From Thermoanaerobaculia bacterium (GTDB lineage Bacteria; Acidobacteriota; Thermoanaerobaculia; Multivoradales; J023), in the NCBI GenBank assembly GCA_030431255.1, contig JAUIJL010000020.1, forward strand, positions 62,001-126,000: 64,000 bases of DNA, written 5' to 3'. Numbering within the stretch: position 1 is the first letter of the stretch; each line of letters starts with the position of its first letter. Shown here piece after piece: positions 4,115-56,855 of this stretch. A model generated the notes under the pieces. The model made no database searches and had not been told where the DNA came from. It was given only the letters and a program-made list of their open reading frames with translations. The translations under genes were made by a program, and so were the position numbers.

Positions 4115-5140
4115 TTGACAACATCCTCGCCAGAAGACAAACTTACGCCTAATTTTCACCCATCTCGTGAGGACCGAGCCATTCCCAAAAGCGACTACGA
4201 CAGCCCATGGAAAGAAATCCTGGAGCTCTACTTAGAGGAGTTTTTCGGCTTCTATTTCCCGAGCATCCACACAGAAATCGACTGGAGCCGCCCGCCGATC
4301 AGCCTAGACAAAGAGCTGCTTAAGATCTATCCAGACTCTGAGGTCTCGAATCGGTTGGCCGACAAGCTATTTCAAGTTTGGACCCTCGACGGTGAGCCTT
4401 TCGACGTCATCGTAAACGTTGAAATCCAGGCCCAGAACGACCGGAGCTTTGCCGAGAGAGTTTTCATCTACAATTACCGAACTTTCGATCGGTTTAGGAG
4501 ACCGGTCGTTTCAGTCGCCCTCCTGTGTGACACCGACCGAAATTTTCACCCTAAAAGCTTCACAGCTTGCGACCTTTGGGGGTGTCGTCTCCATCTCGAT
4601 TTTCCGACGGCAAAGTTGCTGGAGTACAATAGCCGATGGAACGAGCTGGAGAGAAATCCCAATCCCTTTGCAGTGGTTTCCATGGCTCATCTTAAGACCC
4701 AGGCGACTCACTCCCAGCCCGAAGAGCGCTTTCGTTGGAAAATCCGTTTGATCAGAGGTCTCTATGACCGAGGATATTCAAAGCGAGATGTCGTCAGCCT
4801 TTTTAGATTCATTGATTGGATCATGTCTCTACCGGCAGAGCTGAGTCACCGAGTCAAAGAAACCGTCCGTGAAATTGAAACGGAGAAAAACGTGCAGTAC
4901 GTCACCAGCATCGAACGCCTAGCGGGAGAAGAGGGCATGCAGAAGGGCATGCAGAAGGGCATGCAGGAAGGCATCCGAAAAGGGGAATCTCGCTTGTTGA
5001 AAGCTCTCCTGAGCAGCGCCTTCGGACGACTACCCAGCCAGCTGGAAGAGCGACTCGAACAAGCCAGTCCCGATGAAATCGAACGGTGGGCGATTCGGGC
5101 TCGAACCGCCGACTCTCTAGACGAGGTCTTCGAGCGGTAG
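4115..5140 (+). CDS. Rpn/PD-(D/E)XK-family nuclease with DUF4351 tail
   Basis: This 341-residue protein is related to the Rpn (recombination-promoting nuclease) or PDDEXK-type putative transposase family. The core holds the pattern DVIVNVEIQAQ, giving the D...ExQ catalytic signature around residues 98-108, followed by FAERVFIYNYRTFD. The C-terminus, from about residue 290, is a DUF4351 helical domain (LLSSAFGRLPSQLEERL). Between them lies a short repeat of KGMQ units. The likely start is TTG with no clear ribosome site, so the N-terminus is uncertain. Such genes move between genomes and often occur in many copies. No terminal inverted repeats flank it here, so it is not annotated as an insertion sequence. 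Confidence 0.78.
   Translation: MTTSSPEDKLTPNFHPSREDRAIPKSDYDSPWKEILELYLEEFFGFYFPSIHTEIDWSRPPISLDKELLKIYPDSEVSNRLADKLFQVWTLDGEPFDVIVNVEIQAQNDRSFAERVFIYNYRTFDRFRRPVVSVALLCDTDRNFHPKSFTACDLWGCRLHLDFPTAKLLEYNSRWNELERNPNPFAVVSMAHLKTQATHSQPEERFRWKIRLIRGLYDRGYSKRDVVSLFRFIDWIMSLPAELSHRVKETVREIETEKNVQYVTSIERLAGEEGMQKGMQKGMQEGIRKGESRLLKALLSSAFGRLPSQLEERLEQASPDEIERWAIRARTADSLDEVFER
4937..4972. repeat. 12-bp in-frame tandem repeat, 3 units
   Basis: Three copies of ATGCAGAAGGGC (the last with two changes) encode MQKG repeats in the Rpn-type protein, in the linker before the DUF4351 domain. Confidence 0.85.
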
Positions 5141-8818: not shown

Positions 8819-9877
8819 CTAGCTGAAGATCAGGAGATGCTCGCCTTGGGCCTCGACGGAGCCGATTCGCACGGCGTGCTCGCACCCCGCGGCCCTCAAG
8901 GCTTCGAGGGCGGATTCCGCTTGATGCTCCGGAAGCGCGACCAACAATCCGCCGCTGGTTTGGGGATCCACCACGATCTCCTGAAACCAAGTCGGCAAGG
9001 AGCGCTCGAAGCGAAGGGTATCTTGCACTCGCTGTCGGTTGACCTTGTTGACCCCGGTGGTCATGCCGCGACGGTAGGCTTCGAGGGCCTCGTCCATCAC
9101 CGGCACGGTCGACAAATCGACGCGCAGGGACACGTCCGAGGCGCGGGCTATCTCCAGCCCATGACCGGCGAGGCCGAATCCGGTGACGTCGGTCACCGCA
9201 TGGACCTCGAAAGCCTTCAGCGCCTCGGCCGCGTCTTTGTTGAGGGTCACCAGGGTTTCGATGCACTGTTCCATCGCTTGCGTCGAAATCCAGCCCTTCA
9301 GATTGGCGTTGAAAAGAACGCCGGAGCCGATGGGCTTGGTCAGGATCAGCGCGTCGCCCTCTTGGGCTCCCGCGTTGGTCCAAACCCGATCAGGGTCCAC
9401 AATGCCGGTGACCGAAAGGCCGAGCTTGGGCTCTTCGTCTTCGGTGGTGTGACCACCACCCAGCACCGCTCCCGCTTCCGTAATCTTGGTCAACGCCCCC
9501 GCCACCATTTGGTGCAAGACCGAATCGTCCAGCTTCCCTTCGGGGAAGCCCACGATCGTCAAGCAGACGAGGGGTTTGCCGCCCATGGCATAAACATCCG
9601 AGAGGGCATTGGCGGCCGCGATCTGTCCAAAGAGGTGGGCATCGTCCACCGGTGGAGTGATCAGATCCGCGGTAGTGACCAAAGCCGTCGAATCGTCCAA
9701 GCGGTAGACGGCGGCGTCATCGCTGGTCTCGAAACCGACCAGCAGGTTCGGATCCTCATTCCGGGGCAAGCCGGCGAGCAGCGAGTCGAGCCCGACCGGG
9801 CTCAGCTTCGCAGCTCAACCGCAGGTCTTGGCCAGCCCGGTGAGGGTGCGCTTTTGGAAAAGCTTCCCTATTGGCAT
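8819..9877 (-). CDS. selD: selenide, water dikinase (selenophosphate synthase), selenocysteine-containing
   Basis: The product is 352 residues if the in-frame TGA at 9817-9815 is read as selenocysteine. SelD makes selenophosphate from selenide and ATP, the selenium donor for Sec-tRNA and selenouridine. The true start is ATG at 9877, with AGGAG seven to eight bases upstream, giving residues up to TCGUAAKLSP with Sec21 and the essential Lys24. This matches the C17/K20 spacing of E. coli SelD, with Sec in the catalytic Cys place as in many Sec-decoding organisms. A SECIS-like hairpin follows the TGA directly. The rest is a complete AIRS-type ATP-binding enzyme (DDAAVY, GGGHTTEDEEPKLG, VTDVTGFGLAGHG). 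Standard gene callers would start at TTG 9769 and lose the active site. It heads an operon with the PhnD-C-E-E importer. Confidence 0.93.
9788..9803 (-). promoter_or_regulatory. SECIS-like hairpin for UGA recoding in selD
   Basis: On the coding strand GAGCCC-GGUC-GGGCUC forms a six-pair GC stem with a GGUC loop. The stem starts 11 bases after the UGA and the loop lies about 17 bases after it, within the window seen for bacterial SECIS elements, which carry a G/U-containing apical loop bound by SelB. It lies inside the reading frame, as expected in bacteria. Confidence 0.75.
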
Positions 9878-10136: not shown

Positions 10137-10165
10137 TCGACACCCAGGGCGCTCGACGATAGATT
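10137..10165 (+). promoter_or_regulatory. sigma-70-type promoter of the R-body-like operon
   Basis: A -35 box TCGACA (10137-10142, five of six matches) is separated by exactly 17 bases from a -10 box TAGATT (10160-10165, four of six). Transcription would start near 10172, leaving a leader of about 38 bases that contains the AGGAG ribosome site at 10198-10202, seven bases before the ATG at 10210. Confidence 0.55.
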
Positions 10166-10209
10166 TAGGTTCCTCGCCCTTCATCTCGATCCACACCAGG
10201 AGCCTTCCC

Positions 10210-10560
10210 ATGGCTGAGCCAACTCCGGTCAACGGTCAAATTACCGACGCCGTCTCCGAAGACGCCGACGCTCAAGACCACGCCCACACCCAAACCGAGG
10301 CCGATTCCAATGAGAGCGACGTCATCGGGTCCTCACCAGCCGTGGCGCTCAGCACCCTCTACCAAGCTTCCGCTCAATCCCTCGGCATTGCCATGCAAAA
10401 TGCGGTCAGCGCCCAACAGAGCATGAACACATTGGCGATGGCAGTGACCGCTTCGAGCGTGAAGCTGGTCCAATCCGTTCCCGGGGACCAGACCATCGGC
10501 TTGGAAGACTTATTGCGGGTGCCCATGTTGCCGACCATGTCGGATGAGGAGAACAACTGA
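10210..10560 (+). CDS. RebB-family R-body protein (first of three)
   Basis: This 116-residue protein matches the RebB/R-body family pattern: an N-terminal VNGQITDAVSED segment, an acidic variable stretch, then SPAVALSTLYQ, a small-residue helix with NAVSAQQSMNTLAMAVTA and VKLVQ. In Caedibacter and some free-living bacteria, Reb proteins of this kind polymerise into coiled ribbons (R-bodies) that unroll with force, often on a pH change. The ATG start has AGGAG seven bases upstream and a sigma-70-like promoter ahead. The stop overlaps the next ATG by one base. Assignment rests on motif recognition, not on a profile search. Confidence 0.82.
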   Translation: MAEPTPVNGQITDAVSEDADAQDHAHTQTEADSNESDVIGSSPAVALSTLYQASAQSLGIAMQNAVSAQQSMNTLAMAVTASSVKLVQSVPGDQTIGLEDLLRVPMLPTMSDEENN

Positions 10561-10874
10561 TGTCGAGCCCTGAAGACGTCTCCGAGCCGACCGAAGAAGC
10601 TCACATGGAAACCAGGGAGAGCCCGGCACGGGATGCGCCGGACGTCGCCATTGCCACGATCTATCAGCACCTCGCCCACTCCAGCATCTTGGCGATGCAA
10701 AACGCCGTGCAGCAACAGCAGAATACGTGGACCGTGCAAATGGCGGTCACCGCCAAGCTGGTCCAGCAGATCTTGTCGGCAGACGCCGCTCCCATCTCCG
10801 GGGATCCGCTTTACGATCTCTTCGACGACATGGACGGCTTCGAAGACTACGACGACGAGGAAGGTGATTTCTGA
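10560..10874 (+). CDS. RebB-family R-body protein (second of three)
   Basis: This 104-residue paralogue of the preceding protein shows DVAIATIYQHLAHSSILAMQ, then NAVQQQQNTWTVQMAVTAKLVQ, aligned with the SPAVALSTLYQ...NAVSAQQ core of the first gene. It lacks the ITDAV segment and has instead an acidic N-terminus and a strongly acidic C-terminus (DDMDGFEDYDDEEGD). Start and stop codons overlap the flanking genes (TGATG), so all three should be translated in a coupled way at matched levels. It is likely a structural or assembly partner of the R-body ribbon. Confidence 0.78.
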   Translation: MSSPEDVSEPTEEAHMETRESPARDAPDVAIATIYQHLAHSSILAMQNAVQQQQNTWTVQMAVTAKLVQQILSADAAPISGDPLYDLFDDMDGFEDYDDEEGDF

Positions 10875-11275
10875 TGGCCGAGGGCAAGCTGGACGACGGC
10901 TCGCATTTGGACGAGGGCGCGCTTCACCACGAGGTGGCGGCGGCCATGGAGAAAGTCGGCGAGCACCTGCGGCACAGGGGCCCGAAAGATGGTCAGAGCT
11001 TGATCCAACTACAGATCGCCCATTCGCTCTCCTTGGCTCTGGCCGATTCCGTCGCCCAAACCCGCCGGCTCCAAACCCTGGCCATGGCCGGACAAGCCGC
11101 GGCGCAGAAAAAGCTGTTGGACGGCGGTGATCCGGAAACCGCCAGATTGGCCGCGCAGATGGGTCACGAGGCGGTAGAAGCTTCCGTTCAAGAAACCGTC
11201 GACCTGGCTCGGGCGGCCCTGGAGCTTTTTCAGCAATCCGAAAACGGCCGACACCTCGAACAACAAGAAGACTGA
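10874..11275 (+). CDS. RebB-like R-body-associated protein (third of three)
   Basis: This 133-residue helical protein overlaps the preceding gene by one base. Its middle, IQLQIAHSLSLALADSVAQT, then RRLQTLAMAGQAAAQKKLL, keeps the pattern of the Reb core (LYQ...S.G.A..NAV..QQ..NTLA) but is more diverged. A downstream segment, AAQMGHEAVEASVQETVDLARAALELF, has no counterpart in the other two. It could be the third ribbon subunit or an assembly factor. Known reb loci also contain several small related proteins in a row. The family match is weaker than for the first two genes. Confidence 0.62.
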   Translation: MAEGKLDDGSHLDEGALHHEVAAAMEKVGEHLRHRGPKDGQSLIQLQIAHSLSLALADSVAQTRRLQTLAMAGQAAAQKKLLDGGDPETARLAAQMGHEAVEASVQETVDLARAALELFQQSENGRHLEQQED

Positions 11276-11427
11276 GCTTTGCCCCTCGTGATTGGCCCAG
11301 CAAGCCGCGCCTGACATACTCCGCCGGTCGGGTCTCATCCGCCATCGAGCCTCGACCAGATGTGCAAGCTATCCGTCTAACCCTGCCCCGGGTCCCTTCC
11401 GGTGGGCACGTAGAGACAACGTCAAAT

Positions 11428-14163
11428 ATGCCCGATCTCTCCCGACTCAGCCATCCCGACCTCGATCCCACCGAAACCCGCGAGTGGTTGGAAGCGCTCG
11501 AAGATGTGCTTCGCCACGACGGCCCGGAACGAGCCGCCTTCCTGCTCGACCACTTGCTCGACCTCAGCCGACGTCGGGCCGCCGCCGAGGGCCACCATTT
11601 CGGCCCCCTCGGGCTTAATACCCAATATGTGAGCTCGATCTCCAAAGAGCAAGAGCCCGACTATCCGGGCGACTTGGACCTAGAGCGAAAGATCCGCGCG
11701 CTGCTCCGTTGGAACGCCATGGCCATGGTGGTCGGCGCCAACAAACGGCTCGACGGCATCGGCGGTCACATCGCCACCTACCAAAGCGTGGCGGTGCTCT
11801 TCGAAACCGGCTTCCAACACTTCTGGCATGCCGCCACCGAAGAGCACGGAGGCGACCTGGTCTTCTTCCAAGGGCACGCCTCGCCGGGCATTTACGCCCG
11901 TGGATTCCTCGAGGGGACCTTTGAAGAATCTCAATTGCTGCGGTTCCGTCAAGAGGTCGAGCCCGGGGGTATCTCCTCCTACCCCCACCCCTGGCTGATG
12001 CCCGACTATTGGCAAATGGCCACGGTTTCCATGGGCATCGGCCCCCTGAACGCGATCTACCAGGCTCGATTCCTCAAATATTTGCACCATCGCGGACTGG
12101 CCGACACCGCGAATCGGCATGTTTGGGCGTTCTGTGGTGACGGCGAGATGGACGAGCCCGAGTCCCAGGGCGCTTTGACCGTCGCCGGACGCGAAGGTCT
12201 GGACAACCTCATCATCGTCATCAATTGCAATCTTCAACGGCTCGACGGCCCGGTGCGTGGTAACGGCAAAATCATCCAGGAAATGGAGCGGTTATTCCAC
12301 GGCGCCGGCTGGAATGTGCTCAAGATCATGTGGGGATCCGATTGGGATCCCTTGCTGGCGGCCGATCACGATGGTCGATTGGTGCGCCGCATGCTCGAAG
12401 CGGTGGACGGTGAGATGCAAAACTACGGCGCCGCCAATCGCGGCGGCGCTTATATGCGCGAGCATTTCTTCGGCACCGACCCGGAGCTGGCGAAGCGGGT
12501 GGAGCATCTTTCCGATGAGCAGCTCGCCGGCTTGACCCGTGGCGGCCACGATCCGGTCAAAGTGCATGCCGCTTACAAAAAAGCGGTCGATCATGAGGGT
12601 CAGCCCACCGTCATCCTCGCCCATACGGTCAAGGGTTACGGCATGGGCGGCGATGGTGAGGGGCTCAACACCGCCCACCAGCAAAAGAAGATGAAGGTGG
12701 ACTCCATTCGCTCCCTGAGGGATCGCTTCCAGGTGCCCGTGGCCGACGAGCTGCTGCCCACCGAGGACAGCGATCTGGGCAACCTGCCCTTCGTGCGACC
12801 GGACGACGACCAGCCGGAGATAGCTTATCTCAAAGCCCGGCGTCAAGAGCTCGGTGGACCGTTCCCGAGCCGGCGGACCTCGGCGCCGGCCCTCGAAATC
12901 CCCGGGCTCGACACCTTCAAAGCCCTTTTCGAGGACACCGGGGATCGGGAGATCTCAACGACCCAGGCTTTTGTCCGCTTCTTGAACCTGCTGACCCGAG
13001 ACAAGAATCTCAAAGAGAGATTGGTGCCCATTCTCGCCGACGAAGCCCGCACCTTCGGCATGGAGGGCATGTTCCGACAACTGGGCATTTACTCGCCCAA
13101 GGGTCAGCTCTACGAGCCCGTGGACCGGGATCAGCTGATGTTCTACAAAGAATCCACCAGCGGCCAGATCCTGCAGGAGGGCATCAACGAAGCCGGCGCG
13201 GTGTCGTCGTGGACGGCGGCGGGCACCTCCTACTCCACCAGCGGCCTGCACATGATTCCGTTCTACATCTTCTATTCCATGTTCGGCTTCCAGCGGGTCG
13301 GCGATTTCATCTGGGCCGCCGCCGACATGCAAGCCAGGGGATTCCTCCTGGGTGGAACCTCCGGGCGGACCACTTTGAACGGTGAGGGTCTACAACACGA
13401 AGACGGCCACAGCCTGTTGATGGCCGCCACCGTGCCCACTTGCAAAGCCTACGACCCCACCTTCCACTATGAGGTGGCGGTGATCCTGCAAGACGGCTTG
13501 CGCCGCATGTACGGGCCCGACGACGAGAATTGCTTCTACTACCTGACCCTGCTGAACGAAAACTACAGCCAGCCGGCGATGCCCGAGACGACGACACCGG
13601 ATTCGGTGACCGAAGGCATCATCCGCGGCATGTATCTCTTCCAAAAGTCGCCGAGCCGGGCCAAGAAGAAACGAGTCCAGCTCATGGGCAGCGGCTCCAT
13701 TTTGCGCGAGGTGCTCGCGGCGGCCGAGCTGCTCGAGCAGGATTGGGGTGTGGCCGCCGATGTTTGGTCTTGCCCGAGCTTCGTTGAGCTGCGCCGCGAC
13801 GGCATGGCGACCGATCGCTGGAATCTACTGCATCCGGAAAGCGAGCCGCGGGTTGCGTACGTCACCCAATGCTTGGAAGGACACGCTGGCCCGGTGATCG
13901 CCTCCACCGACTACATGAAGGCCTACGCCGATCAGATCCGCGCTTGGGTGCCCGGCCGTTTCTCGGTGCTCGGCACCGACGGATTCGGCCGTTCCGACAC
14001 CCGAGAAAAGCTGCGCTATTTCTTCGAGGTCGACCGCCATTGGGTCACTGTGGCGGCCCTCAAAGCCTTGGCCGACGACAAAGCCGTCAGCGCCAACACC
14101 GTGAGCCAGGCCATCGAGGCCTATGGCTTGGACCCGGAAAAAGCCGACCCCACTACTGTTTAA
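11428..14163 (+). CDS. aceE: pyruvate dehydrogenase E1 component, homodimeric type
   Basis: The product is 911 residues, close to the usual 890 of the AceE family. It is the ThDP-dependent decarboxylase that passes acetyl units from pyruvate to the lipoyl arm of E2. The ThDP/Mg signature runs from CGDGEMDEPESQGAL (near residue 236) to NCNLQRLDGPVRGN. The PDH-specific N-terminus (YVSSISKEQEPDYPGDLDLE) and the histidine-rich active-site strands (GHASPGIYARGFLEG) are present. The ATG at 11428 is preferred over GTG at 11362 because it gives a family-typical N-terminus. The gene is followed by aceF and lpd in one operon; the reb-like genes end 152 bases upstream on the same strand. Confidence 0.95.
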   Translation: MPDLSRLSHPDLDPTETREWLEALEDVLRHDGPERAAFLLDHLLDLSRRRAAAEGHHFGPLGLNTQYVSSISKEQEPDYPGDLDLERKIRALLRWNAMAMVVGANKRLDGIGGHIATYQSVAVLFETGFQHFWHAATEEHGGDLVFFQGHASPGIYARGFLEGTFEESQLLRFRQEVEPGGISSYPHPWLMPDYWQMATVSMGIGPLNAIYQARFLKYLHHRGLADTANRHVWAFCGDGEMDEPESQGALTVAGREGLDNLIIVINCNLQRLDGPVRGNGKIIQEMERLFHGAGWNVLKIMWGSDWDPLLAADHDGRLVRRMLEAVDGEMQNYGAANRGGAYMREHFFGTDPELAKRVEHLSDEQLAGLTRGGHDPVKVHAAYKKAVDHEGQPTVILAHTVKGYGMGGDGEGLNTAHQQKKMKVDSIRSLRDRFQVPVADELLPTEDSDLGNLPFVRPDDDQPEIAYLKARRQELGGPFPSRRTSAPALEIPGLDTFKALFEDTGDREISTTQAFVRFLNLLTRDKNLKERLVPILADEARTFGMEGMFRQLGIYSPKGQLYEPVDRDQLMFYKESTSGQILQEGINEAGAVSSWTAAGTSYSTSGLHMIPFYIFYSMFGFQRVGDFIWAAADMQARGFLLGGTSGRTTLNGEGLQHEDGHSLLMAATVPTCKAYDPTFHYEVAVILQDGLRRMYGPDDENCFYYLTLLNENYSQPAMPETTTPDSVTEGIIRGMYLFQKSPSRAKKKRVQLMGSGSILREVLAAAELLEQDWGVAADVWSCPSFVELRRDGMATDRWNLLHPESEPRVAYVTQCLEGHAGPVIASTDYMKAYADQIRAWVPGRFSVLGTDGFGRSDTREKLRYFFEVDRHWVTVAALKALADDKAVSANTVSQAIEAYGLDPEKADPTTV

Positions 14164-17410: not shown

Positions 17411-18754
17411 CTAAGAGACGTCGACTCCGTCGAGCCCCTGGACCGCTTCGCGGCAGCTTTCGATCAGCCTTTCCACCTCGGATTCTCGCCGGGGATCGTA
17501 GACGAAGGTCAAAGTCCGGGTGCTCAGGCCGACACTCGACGCATCCCCGCTGAGCAGCTGGTGAATTTCGTCACACGACGCGAATCTCTCTTTCGGATCC
17601 TTGGCGGTGGCCCGCCGAACGACCTCTTCCAGATCCGTGGGCAGCCCCACCCGGCTGACACTGAGGGGCGGTACCGGTTGCTCACGATGCGCTTGAAGCA
17701 CCCGGTGAATGGGGCCCGTAAAGGGTTGCTTACCGGTGACCAGCTCGTAGGCCATGATGCCCAATGAATAGATGTCCGTTCGGGCATCGATTTGCGCGCC
17801 ATCGATTTGCTCAGGCGCCATATAGGCCGGCGTGCCCGAGAACGGCTGCTCGACCTGATCCGCGGGGCTCCCGTGGAGGTCCAGGGCGAGGCCGAAGTCC
17901 GTGAGCTTCACCAAGCCGTCTCGACTGATCATGATGTTGGACGGTTTGACGTCTCGATGCACGATGCCCTGACGATGGGCCGCGGCCAAGGCCGAGGCCA
18001 CTTGCCGCAGAATGTCCCGTGCGACGTCCGCCTCGAGGGGACCCTGGGATTCGATCCACTCATCGAGCGGGATACCGTGCAAACGCTCCATGACGATGAA
18101 GAGGGTCGCATAGGCCTGCTCGGTATCGAAAACCTCTACGATGTGCGGATGCCTAAGCCGGCTGATGATCTTCGCCTCGTTGCGAAAATGCTCGCGAAAA
18201 TTAGTGCGGCAGACCAGCTCGTGGGACAGCATTTTCACCGCCACGGTGCGCTCGAGGTCGGGGTGGATCCCCTCATAAACGATCGACATGCTGCCCCGGC
18301 CGAGCTCGCCGGTCAGCTTGTATTTGCCGATCTGGCGGATGTGCCCGGAACGCAAAAGGCGCTCTCCCAAAATCGCCGTCAGCAGCTGCGCAACCTCCGG
18401 ATGCTCGGCGATCAGCTCCTCCACCACATCCCGATAGAGCTTGATACACCGGCAATTTGATGCTGCAAAGACATCAGCAGTCCGAGATTCGCCGGTCAGC
18501 AGGGCCATTTCCCCGAACATTTGCCGCGGCCCGAGCCGCACCACCAGCTTCTCGCGCCCGTCCGGCTGATAGATCGGAATCTCAACCCGCCCTGAGATCA
18601 AAACGTACATGCAATCGCCGGGATCGCCCTTCTTTAGGATGTGGCTGCCTTTTTCGAAGCTGACCTCCACCACATGGCCGACCAATCGCTGAGCCGCCTC
18701 ACGCCCGAGCGAGTCGAAACCTTCGATGTCCGTCAGAAAACCGGCTACGTCCAT
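17411..18754 (-). CDS. cyclic-nucleotide-binding Ser/Thr protein kinase
   Basis: The product is 447 residues. The N-terminal cNMP-binding domain (about 15-125) contains a phosphate-binding-cassette-like FGEMALLTGESRTADV (80-95). The Hanks-type kinase domain (about 144-400) has the glycine loop GRGSMS, lysine K174 (VAVKM), HRDVKPSN at 266-273, DFG at 286-288 and APE at 313-315, so it appears active. The tail is about 50 residues with no recognised domain. No transmembrane segment is seen, so it is probably cytosolic. The ATG at 18754 has AAGG seven bases upstream. Direct fusion of a CRP-type sensor to a kinase suggests that cAMP or a related nucleotide controls phosphorylation (inference). Confidence 0.88.
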   Translation of the reverse strand: MDVAGFLTDIEGFDSLGREAAQRLVGHVVEVSFEKGSHILKKGDPGDCMYVLISGRVEIPIYQPDGREKLVVRLGPRQMFGEMALLTGESRTADVFAASNCRCIKLYRDVVEELIAEHPEVAQLLTAILGERLLRSGHIRQIGKYKLTGELGRGSMSIVYEGIHPDLERTVAVKMLSHELVCRTNFREHFRNEAKIISRLRHPHIVEVFDTEQAYATLFIVMERLHGIPLDEWIESQGPLEADVARDILRQVASALAAAHRQGIVHRDVKPSNIMISRDGLVKLTDFGLALDLHGSPADQVEQPFSGTPAYMAPEQIDGAQIDARTDIYSLGIMAYELVTGKQPFTGPIHRVLQAHREQPVPPLSVSRVGLPTDLEEVVRRATAKDPKERFASCDEIHQLLSGDASSVGLSTRTLTFVYDPRRESEVERLIESCREAVQGLDGVDVS

Positions 18755-18979
18755 AAGAGACCTTGTGCAAGAGAATCTGCAGCCGAGGCGCGGCAAAGCC
18801 CGCTTCGGCCCTGGAATCAAGGCTCAGCCGAGCCGAAGCCTTCCAGCTTTGGGCCTCCAGTCTGAGCTCCATCATTGATAGGAGATTCTGCTGCATCCCG
18901 AGCAGGCATTCAAGCCATAGATATAGATGCGGCGCGAAGCCCGGGCTACAGCTCGGAAGCTACCCAAAGGTGCCTGCTT

Positions 18980-56326: not shown

Positions 56327-56411
56327 TGGTGCCGGAGACGGGACTCGAACCCGTAAGCCTTGCGGCGGCGGATTTTAAGTCCGCTGCGTATACCGATTTC
56401 GCCACTCCGGC
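56327..56411 (-). tRNA. tRNA-Leu (UAA)
   Basis: This 85-base tRNA includes an encoded CCA. The acceptor stem GCCGGAG pairs with CTCCGGC. It has a long variable arm, the T arm GGTTCGAGTCC, and anticodon TAA within the loop CTTAAAA. It is the last gene of the cluster. Confidence 0.96.
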
Positions 56412-56475
56412 GCGCTGCGGATCTTAGCAGGGAGATGGGGACGAATTGTAGGGTGTCGAGAGGCGAAAGGCAGAC

Positions 56476-56550
56476 TGGAGCGGGAAACGGGATTCGAACC
56501 CGCGACCCCAACCTTGGCAAGGTTGTGCTCTACCACTGAGCTATTCCCGC
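56476..56550 (-). tRNA. tRNA-Gly (GCC), copy 2
   Basis: This 75-base tRNA has an encoded CCA, acceptor GCGGGAA, D-loop AGCTCAGTGGTAGAGC, and anticodon GCC in the loop TTGCCAA. The sequence is identical to the copy at 56781-56855. Confidence 0.97.
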
Positions 56551-56661
56551 TTGGAGCTTGGCTGCATGAGGCGTTTCGGCTCACTCCGGTCCGAAACCGG
56601 ATAAGGCCGGAAGCCGGATATGACACGAAGCATGCTGGAGAGATCTGGAGGCCGGTCGAGT

Positions 56662-56736
56662 TGGAGGCGACGGCCGGATTCGAACCGGCGAATGAGGGTT
56701 TTGCAGACCCTTGCCTTACCACTTGGCCACGTCGCC
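56662..56736 (-). tRNA. tRNA-Cys (GCA)
   Basis: This 75-base tRNA has an encoded CCA, acceptor GGCGACG, anticodon GCA in the loop CTGCAAA, and T arm GGTTCGAATCC. It lies between the two tRNA-Gly copies. Confidence 0.97.
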
Positions 56737-56780
56737 AGCTTCGCACTCGGCGGTCGGCACTGGCTACCGACTTTGAATTC

Positions 56781-56855
56781 TGGAGCGGGAAACGGGATTC
56801 GAACCCGCGACCCCAACCTTGGCAAGGTTGTGCTCTACCACTGAGCTATTCCCGC
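56781..56855 (-). tRNA. tRNA-Gly (GCC), copy 1
   Basis: This 75-base tRNA is the first of the cluster in transcription order Gly-Cys-Gly-Leu. It is identical to the second Gly copy over the whole gene including CCA. The short flanks differ, so the duplication is limited to about the gene itself. Confidence 0.97.

Follow-up and report, generated by a model that had tools for sequence, protein, structure and literature searches.

The locus lies in a window of 64,000 nucleotides, which is the whole stretch of DNA that was analysed, and comprises three small genes on the + strand: reb gene 1 (10210-10560, 116 aa) and reb gene 2 (10560-10874, 104 aa, with an acidic tail), both of the RebB family, and gene 3 (10874-11275, 133 aa), a probable diverged Reb-related closing gene with a core-like helix and an extra C-terminal helix. 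Both junctions, read directly, are TGATG, a one-base stop/start overlap, as the initial annotation had described. Ribosome-binding-like sites can be read in the same way: AGGAG at 10198-10202 (+), 7 nt before the ATG of gene 1, AGGAG 8 nt before the start of gene 2, and AGGAAGG, which ends 9 nt before the start of gene 3. A promoter and a good ribosome site had been placed ahead of gene 1; the ribosome site stands, whereas evidence for the promoter is weak, consisting of hexamers (TCGACA-17-TAGATT, 10137-10165, +) that are promoter-like by consensus match only (9 of 12 positions) and are the only site of this kind in 2 kb of scanned sequence, shuffled sequences giving a mean of 0.3. The cassette is flanked upstream by selD (8819-9769, on the opposite strand) and downstream by aceE, neither of which is a regulator; beyond aceE, two frames resemble, by eye, the E2 and E3 subunits of pyruvate dehydrogenase. 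The overall GC of the cassette is similar to that of its surroundings, and its codon-position GC broadly resembles that of five nearby genes.

Several other features of the window were observed. Downstream of the cassette, a few genes away, a cyclic-nucleotide-binding domain is fused to a Ser/Thr protein kinase (17411-18820, -), and four tRNA genes (Leu, Gly, Cys, and Gly, with Gly-GCC in two copies) are located at 56327-56855 (-). In addition, an ORF at 4115-5140 (+), which may resemble transposase-like nucleases, has a GMQKGMQEG-type short tandem repeat close to its end.

Membership of genes 1 and 2 in the RebB family was examined with the family model, as had been proposed as a check of the R-body reading. 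Against Pfam RebB (PF11747, curated gathering cut-off 24 bits), gene 1 matched over residues 37-90 with 57.7 bits (E 1.2e-15) and gene 2 over residues 25-77 with 40.1 bits (E 3.9e-10), and both are therefore above the cut-off. These two genes gave the only RebB matches in the whole 10.2 Mb assembly, and none of the 14 control genomes had a match. According to a 2026 survey (PMC13430693), primary Reb proteins have a QITD signature, a KXXXD/E motif and few charged residues in domain 1, NAV and QQ(Q) motifs in domain 3, and a charged variable C-terminus. The RebB match in genes 1 and 2 covers domains 2-3, including LYQ in gene 1 and IYQ in gene 2, the NAV motif, and the glutamine run (NAVSAQQ and NAVQQQQ, respectively), and the C-terminal tails of both are acidic, which fits the described C-terminus; VNGQITDAV is present in gene 1 only. 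The claim that all three genes share a RebB core thus holds for genes 1 and 2 but not for gene 3, which gave no match to Pfam RebB at E up to 1 and has no signature motifs (LYQ is absent, and NAV with the glutamine run occurs in genes 1 and 2 only).

A sister operon was found in another genus of the same family, in Acidobacteriota MAG OFTM328 (JAJCXR010000004.1, loci L023/L030; hereafter G002), where the same three-gene order is kept with overlaps of 1 base and 8 bases and a homologue of gene 3 (49%) follows two RebB genes. The core regions of the subunits differ between the two operons with dN of 0.26-0.32 and dS of 0.65-1.76, and dN well under dS indicates that the cores are under constraint. 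The sister operon differs in that its genes 1 and 2 are canonical, with a less charged domain 1 (3 and 4 Asp/Glu) that carries QITD, and in its neighbours, a CHAT-domain protein, an M48-peptidase-like protein, and a winged-helix and TPR (wHTH-TPR) regulator (L023:5425-8845 and 10168-11625). No paper was found in a literature search with the isolate name OFTM328. The RebB matches and this sister operon support the initial reading of a putative R-body operon; judged by its sequence, the locus is a real, intact-looking reb operon and a member of a known system, in a genome that is probably acidobacterial, the phylum being deduced from the kinship with G002. Several reb genes thus appear side by side with one-base overlaps, two of them RebB genes and one probably Reb-related, and the threshold for a Reb cluster used in the 2026 survey, three or more Reb genes, is reached only if gene 3 is counted.

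The distribution of the cassette is patchy. Counting its own genome each time, RebB matches were found in 4 of the 59 genomes screened as relatives, 6 of the 148 belonging to the class, and 4 of the 396 sampled from the phylum, and the single same-genus genome searched had no RebB match. Two genomes of one genus each have a single RebB-like gene with QITDA and a long C-terminal extension (L070:6313-6828 in G443 and L058:6609-7337 in G329); as no second RebB-profile match was present in the stretches examined, they were not counted as clusters. An empty site was also sought in stretches of ~6.5-7 kb from five relatives (G001-G005), in which aceE was found in 5/5 and selD in 0/5, and the absence of selD means that an insertion site is not definable.

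Gene 3 had been described as strongly diverged, which is right but understated, as it is recognisable only through intermediates. Besides lacking a RebB match, it has no NCBIfam or PHROGs match, and its single Pfam match is below the cut-off of that family. The intermediates are genes that close other reb clusters: the closing genes in G018, G020, and the Azospirillum and Bealeia plasmid clusters encode proteins of 116-165 aa in which a C-terminal region is added to a Reb-like core. A closing-type gene ends the cluster, on the same strand, in all six genomes in which two or more clustered RebB genes were found (G000, G002, G018, G020, G245, and G420), four of which went into the first profile (A1); in G245 and G420, which were outside this profile, the closing gene was the top match among the ORFs of the searched stretches (1.8e-15 and 3.5e-15). 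In G020, the gene that closes the cluster itself passes the RebB cut-off (32.6 bits) and also matches gene 3 (29%, E 9.8e-4), and therefore bridges RebB and the closing-gene family. Directly upstream of this five-gene cluster, a 734-aa fusion of sigma-70 region 2/4 and TPR (L024:6056-8260) was observed, which is a candidate regulator.

Against a closing-gene profile built without it, gene 3 scored 24.8 bits, compared with a maximum of 11.0 among 500 shuffles, 496 of which were scored. In hhalign comparisons, gene 3 and its G002 homologue together reached 34.1 against the closing-gene family in a match spanning 103 columns (null maximum 19.1 in 300 permutations; reversed 12.7) and, more weakly, 19.5 against RebB (null maximum 17.3); the closing-gene family without the bridging row, with gene 3 and its G002 homologue included, scored 46.8 against RebB (maximum 17.7 in 100 column permutations; reversed 10.9). 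It is conceivable, yet in our view rather unlikely, that gene 3 has no relation to Reb and encodes a helical protein recruited to the operon, such as a regulator or chaperone. Such a recruit would explain the missing family matches and the weak hhalign result with the plain RebB profile (probabilities of 7.4 and 3.3; E 0.0048 and 0.013). It would also agree with a genome-wide search at E 0.01 using closing-gene profile A4, built without gene 3 and its G002 homologue, which returned genes 1 and 2 but neither of these two; moreover, alanine-rich helices raise chance similarity. However, scores above those of the scored shuffles and the reversed control, the length of the hhalign match, and the bridging gene of G020 all argue for relatedness. 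Because the A4 search missed both proteins, gene 3 is called here a probable, and not a proven, Reb relative outside RebB itself.

The AlphaFold model of gene 3, from a two-row alignment, contains helices at residues 14-34, 40-82, and 87-132 (mean pLDDT 76.9), and a fold search with this model against the PDB and viral models returned no hit reaching E 0.001. Among the annotated plasmid clusters, a closing gene was recognised in two of four, those of Azospirillum and Bealeia. None was recognised in the Ruegeria cluster, whose long protein Rue_2 scored 18.5 bits against the closing-gene profile with gene 3 included (shuffle maximum 10.0) and 1.7 without gene 3, and the Caedibacter stretch stops directly behind the final reb gene. 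The closing-gene family, which is HP1.2-like, is perhaps a "secondary" Reb group.

Such loci were said to be known by sequence from many bacteria, which agrees with the 2026 survey (PMC13430693), where reb clusters are reported from several phyla and three or more reb genes from multiple species of Acidobacteriota. The accompanying statement that they have rarely been studied outside Caedibacter does not do justice to experiments reported in Pseudomonas aeruginosa (PMC8322103) and Azorhizobium (PMC5527310). In Caedibacter taeniospiralis (rebABC(D), pKAP298), RebA, RebB, and RebC are reported to suffice for R-bodies in E. coli (PMC3583457); in Azorhizobium, the non-reb gene AZC_3784 is described as essential for R-body formation (PMC5527310), and in P. 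aeruginosa PA14, RapA is reported to co-localise with the ribbon protein RebP1 (PMC8322103). The published systems thus show a recurring pattern of homologous structural subunits with accessory factors, which the 2+1 set of the window, by analogy, fits.

Caedibacter has likewise two homologous structural proteins and an accessory protein, and a tblastn search with gene 1 finds a RebB family gene of pKAP298 (E 3e-3). It differs in that its accessory RebC is given no known homologues elsewhere (PMC3583457), that its two larger Reb proteins have QITD, and that all three have only 2-3 acidic residues before the core. The PA14 cluster, rebP1P2-rapA, similarly combines two structural subunits with an associated protein (PMC8322103), RapA being likened here by its description, but it contains sigma-factor and transcription-factor genes, in contrast to the selD and aceE flanks of the window. 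A layout like the cassette's tandem RebB genes with a same-strand closing-type gene appears in clusters of the Group 1 type on the Azospirillum and Candidatus Bealeia plasmids, although each of these has six annotated RebB genes and further associated genes. HP1.2 is described as ~110-120 aa and an A. brasilense plasmid as carrying the Group 1 genes (PMC3583457); we infer the Group 1 and HP1.2 labels for the two plasmids, and the Azospirillum closing gene (116 aa) fits HP1.2 by position and size. A literature search joining R-body and Myxococcota found nothing, and no chain among solved structures matched a Reb profile in a sequence search at E up to 1.

Taken together, the locus is quite probably a compact reb (R-body) operon that encodes two ribbon subunits and a diverged protein, probably related to Reb, with an accessory or assembly role. 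Genes 1 and 2 would encode RebB-family subunits, small and largely helical, which together polymerise into a ribbon that is coiled within the cell, and the product of gene 3 would most likely bind the ribbon or its growing end and be needed for assembly. By analogy with characterised R-bodies, the stored coil might extend when conditions change, for example upon acidification in the food vacuole of a grazer, and rupture membranes.

A distinctive feature of the subunits is an acidic domain 1. Before the core, gene 1 has 10 Asp/Glu among 42 residues and gene 2 has 8 among 26, compared with 1-6 Asp/Glu, and at most 0.171 of residues, in the same region of 32 comparison Reb proteins. Domain 1 of genes 1 and 2 thus departs from the few charges described in the survey (PMC13430693), and their core is nearly uncharged, as described there. 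The comparison set was drawn from 50 proteins, with 18 left out: window genes 1-3 (3), those with a misplaced anchor (Azo_4, Azo_5, and L056_6784; 3), Reb-like proteins without the anchor (Bea_4, Azo_6, and L057_6576; 3), closing genes (G002_3, G018_4, G020_5, Azo_7, and Bea_7; 5), and other cluster proteins (Rue_2, Rue_3, Rue_4, and Bea_8; 4). Nine other proteins of the window were only mildly acidic (Asp+Glu 0.11-0.17, Lys+Arg 0.07-0.12), which argues against a strongly acidic proteome in general. In gene 1, alignments place an acidic insertion of ~16 residues inside domain 1, just after the retained QITDAV, and the alignable part of domain 1 has an identity of 0.65 to the G002 protein; in gene 2, QITD and its surroundings are replaced by an acidic stretch of the same length. 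QITD is present in 25 of the 32 comparison proteins and missing in 7, so its loss in gene 2 is not special; similarly, KXXXD/E, which is absent from genes 1 and 2, occurs in only 17 of the 32 and is not absolute.

One tentative reading, which we consider unlikely, is that domain 1 became acidic in parallel in the two subunits and that this re-tunes the ribbon, charge repulsion holding the coil extended or closed. Type 51 R-bodies are reported to unroll at pH values under 6.5 and to roll up again above 7.0 (PMC3583457), and titratable residues in domain 1 could, we infer from this pH switching, change the trigger. As each N-terminus has 8 to 10 titratable carboxylates, such a ribbon might switch at a different pH or in response to salt or divalent cations, and a charge switch might stand in place of the K-to-D/E contact that has been suggested for other Reb proteins. 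If this is true, the operon and its G002 counterpart would form a natural two-state comparison for the R-body extension trigger.

It is equally improbable that the proteins are Reb-derived and no longer build an R-body, the cores still assembling while the acidic domain 1 blocks coiling, so that a filament, a small oligomer, or a storage or scaffold protein results. Domain 1 of gene 2 has diverged from that of G002 far beyond the core (identity 0.19 vs. 0.66; dN 1.05 vs. 0.26), with dN close to dS (1.05/1.30), and the acidic insertion of gene 1 lies at the same place. The AlphaFold model of gene 2 also leaves residues 1-25 at pLDDT <50 ahead of a helix at 25-73; however, this is a low-confidence model (mean 60.9) from a four-row alignment, without a folded canonical control. 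Members of otherwise canonical clusters are among the proteins without QITD, and the conservation of both the cores and the gene order further argues for the compact R-body operon. It is very unlikely that the locus is the decaying remnant of a reb cluster acquired by horizontal transfer: the patchy distribution, including the match-free same-genus genome and the few matches among relatives, and the fast divergence of domain 1 of gene 2 and of the C-terminal parts (dN 1.11 and dS 1.13 in that of gene 1) would suit it, but the three open frames with ribosome-binding-like sites and overlapping junctions, the GC values, and the constrained cores speak against it.

The system is already known, and its occurrence in the phylum had been reported; this new member carries a sequence variant, an acidic domain 1, which is worth testing. 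The trigger of R-body extension and the parts of Reb proteins that matter are unsettled in the field, and the compact 2+1 cassette would offer a small set for reconstitution. As the sister operon differs most in domain 1 and the tails of the subunits, the pair would provide a built-in test of the role of domain 1. The cassette also suggests what to expect of the closing gene, whose annotation is hypothetical in both annotated clusters where it was recognised.

Phage origin or carriage was considered and rejected: none of 429 pattern matches between the RebB alignment and viral contigs was confirmed as a relative, and a search of 50,697 phage records with a canonical RebB was negative at E 0.01. 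As a separate observation, the PHROG family phrog_32040, of unknown function, matches gene 1 (10210-10560) with E 5e-8, and this phage family may, by sequence, be Reb-like.
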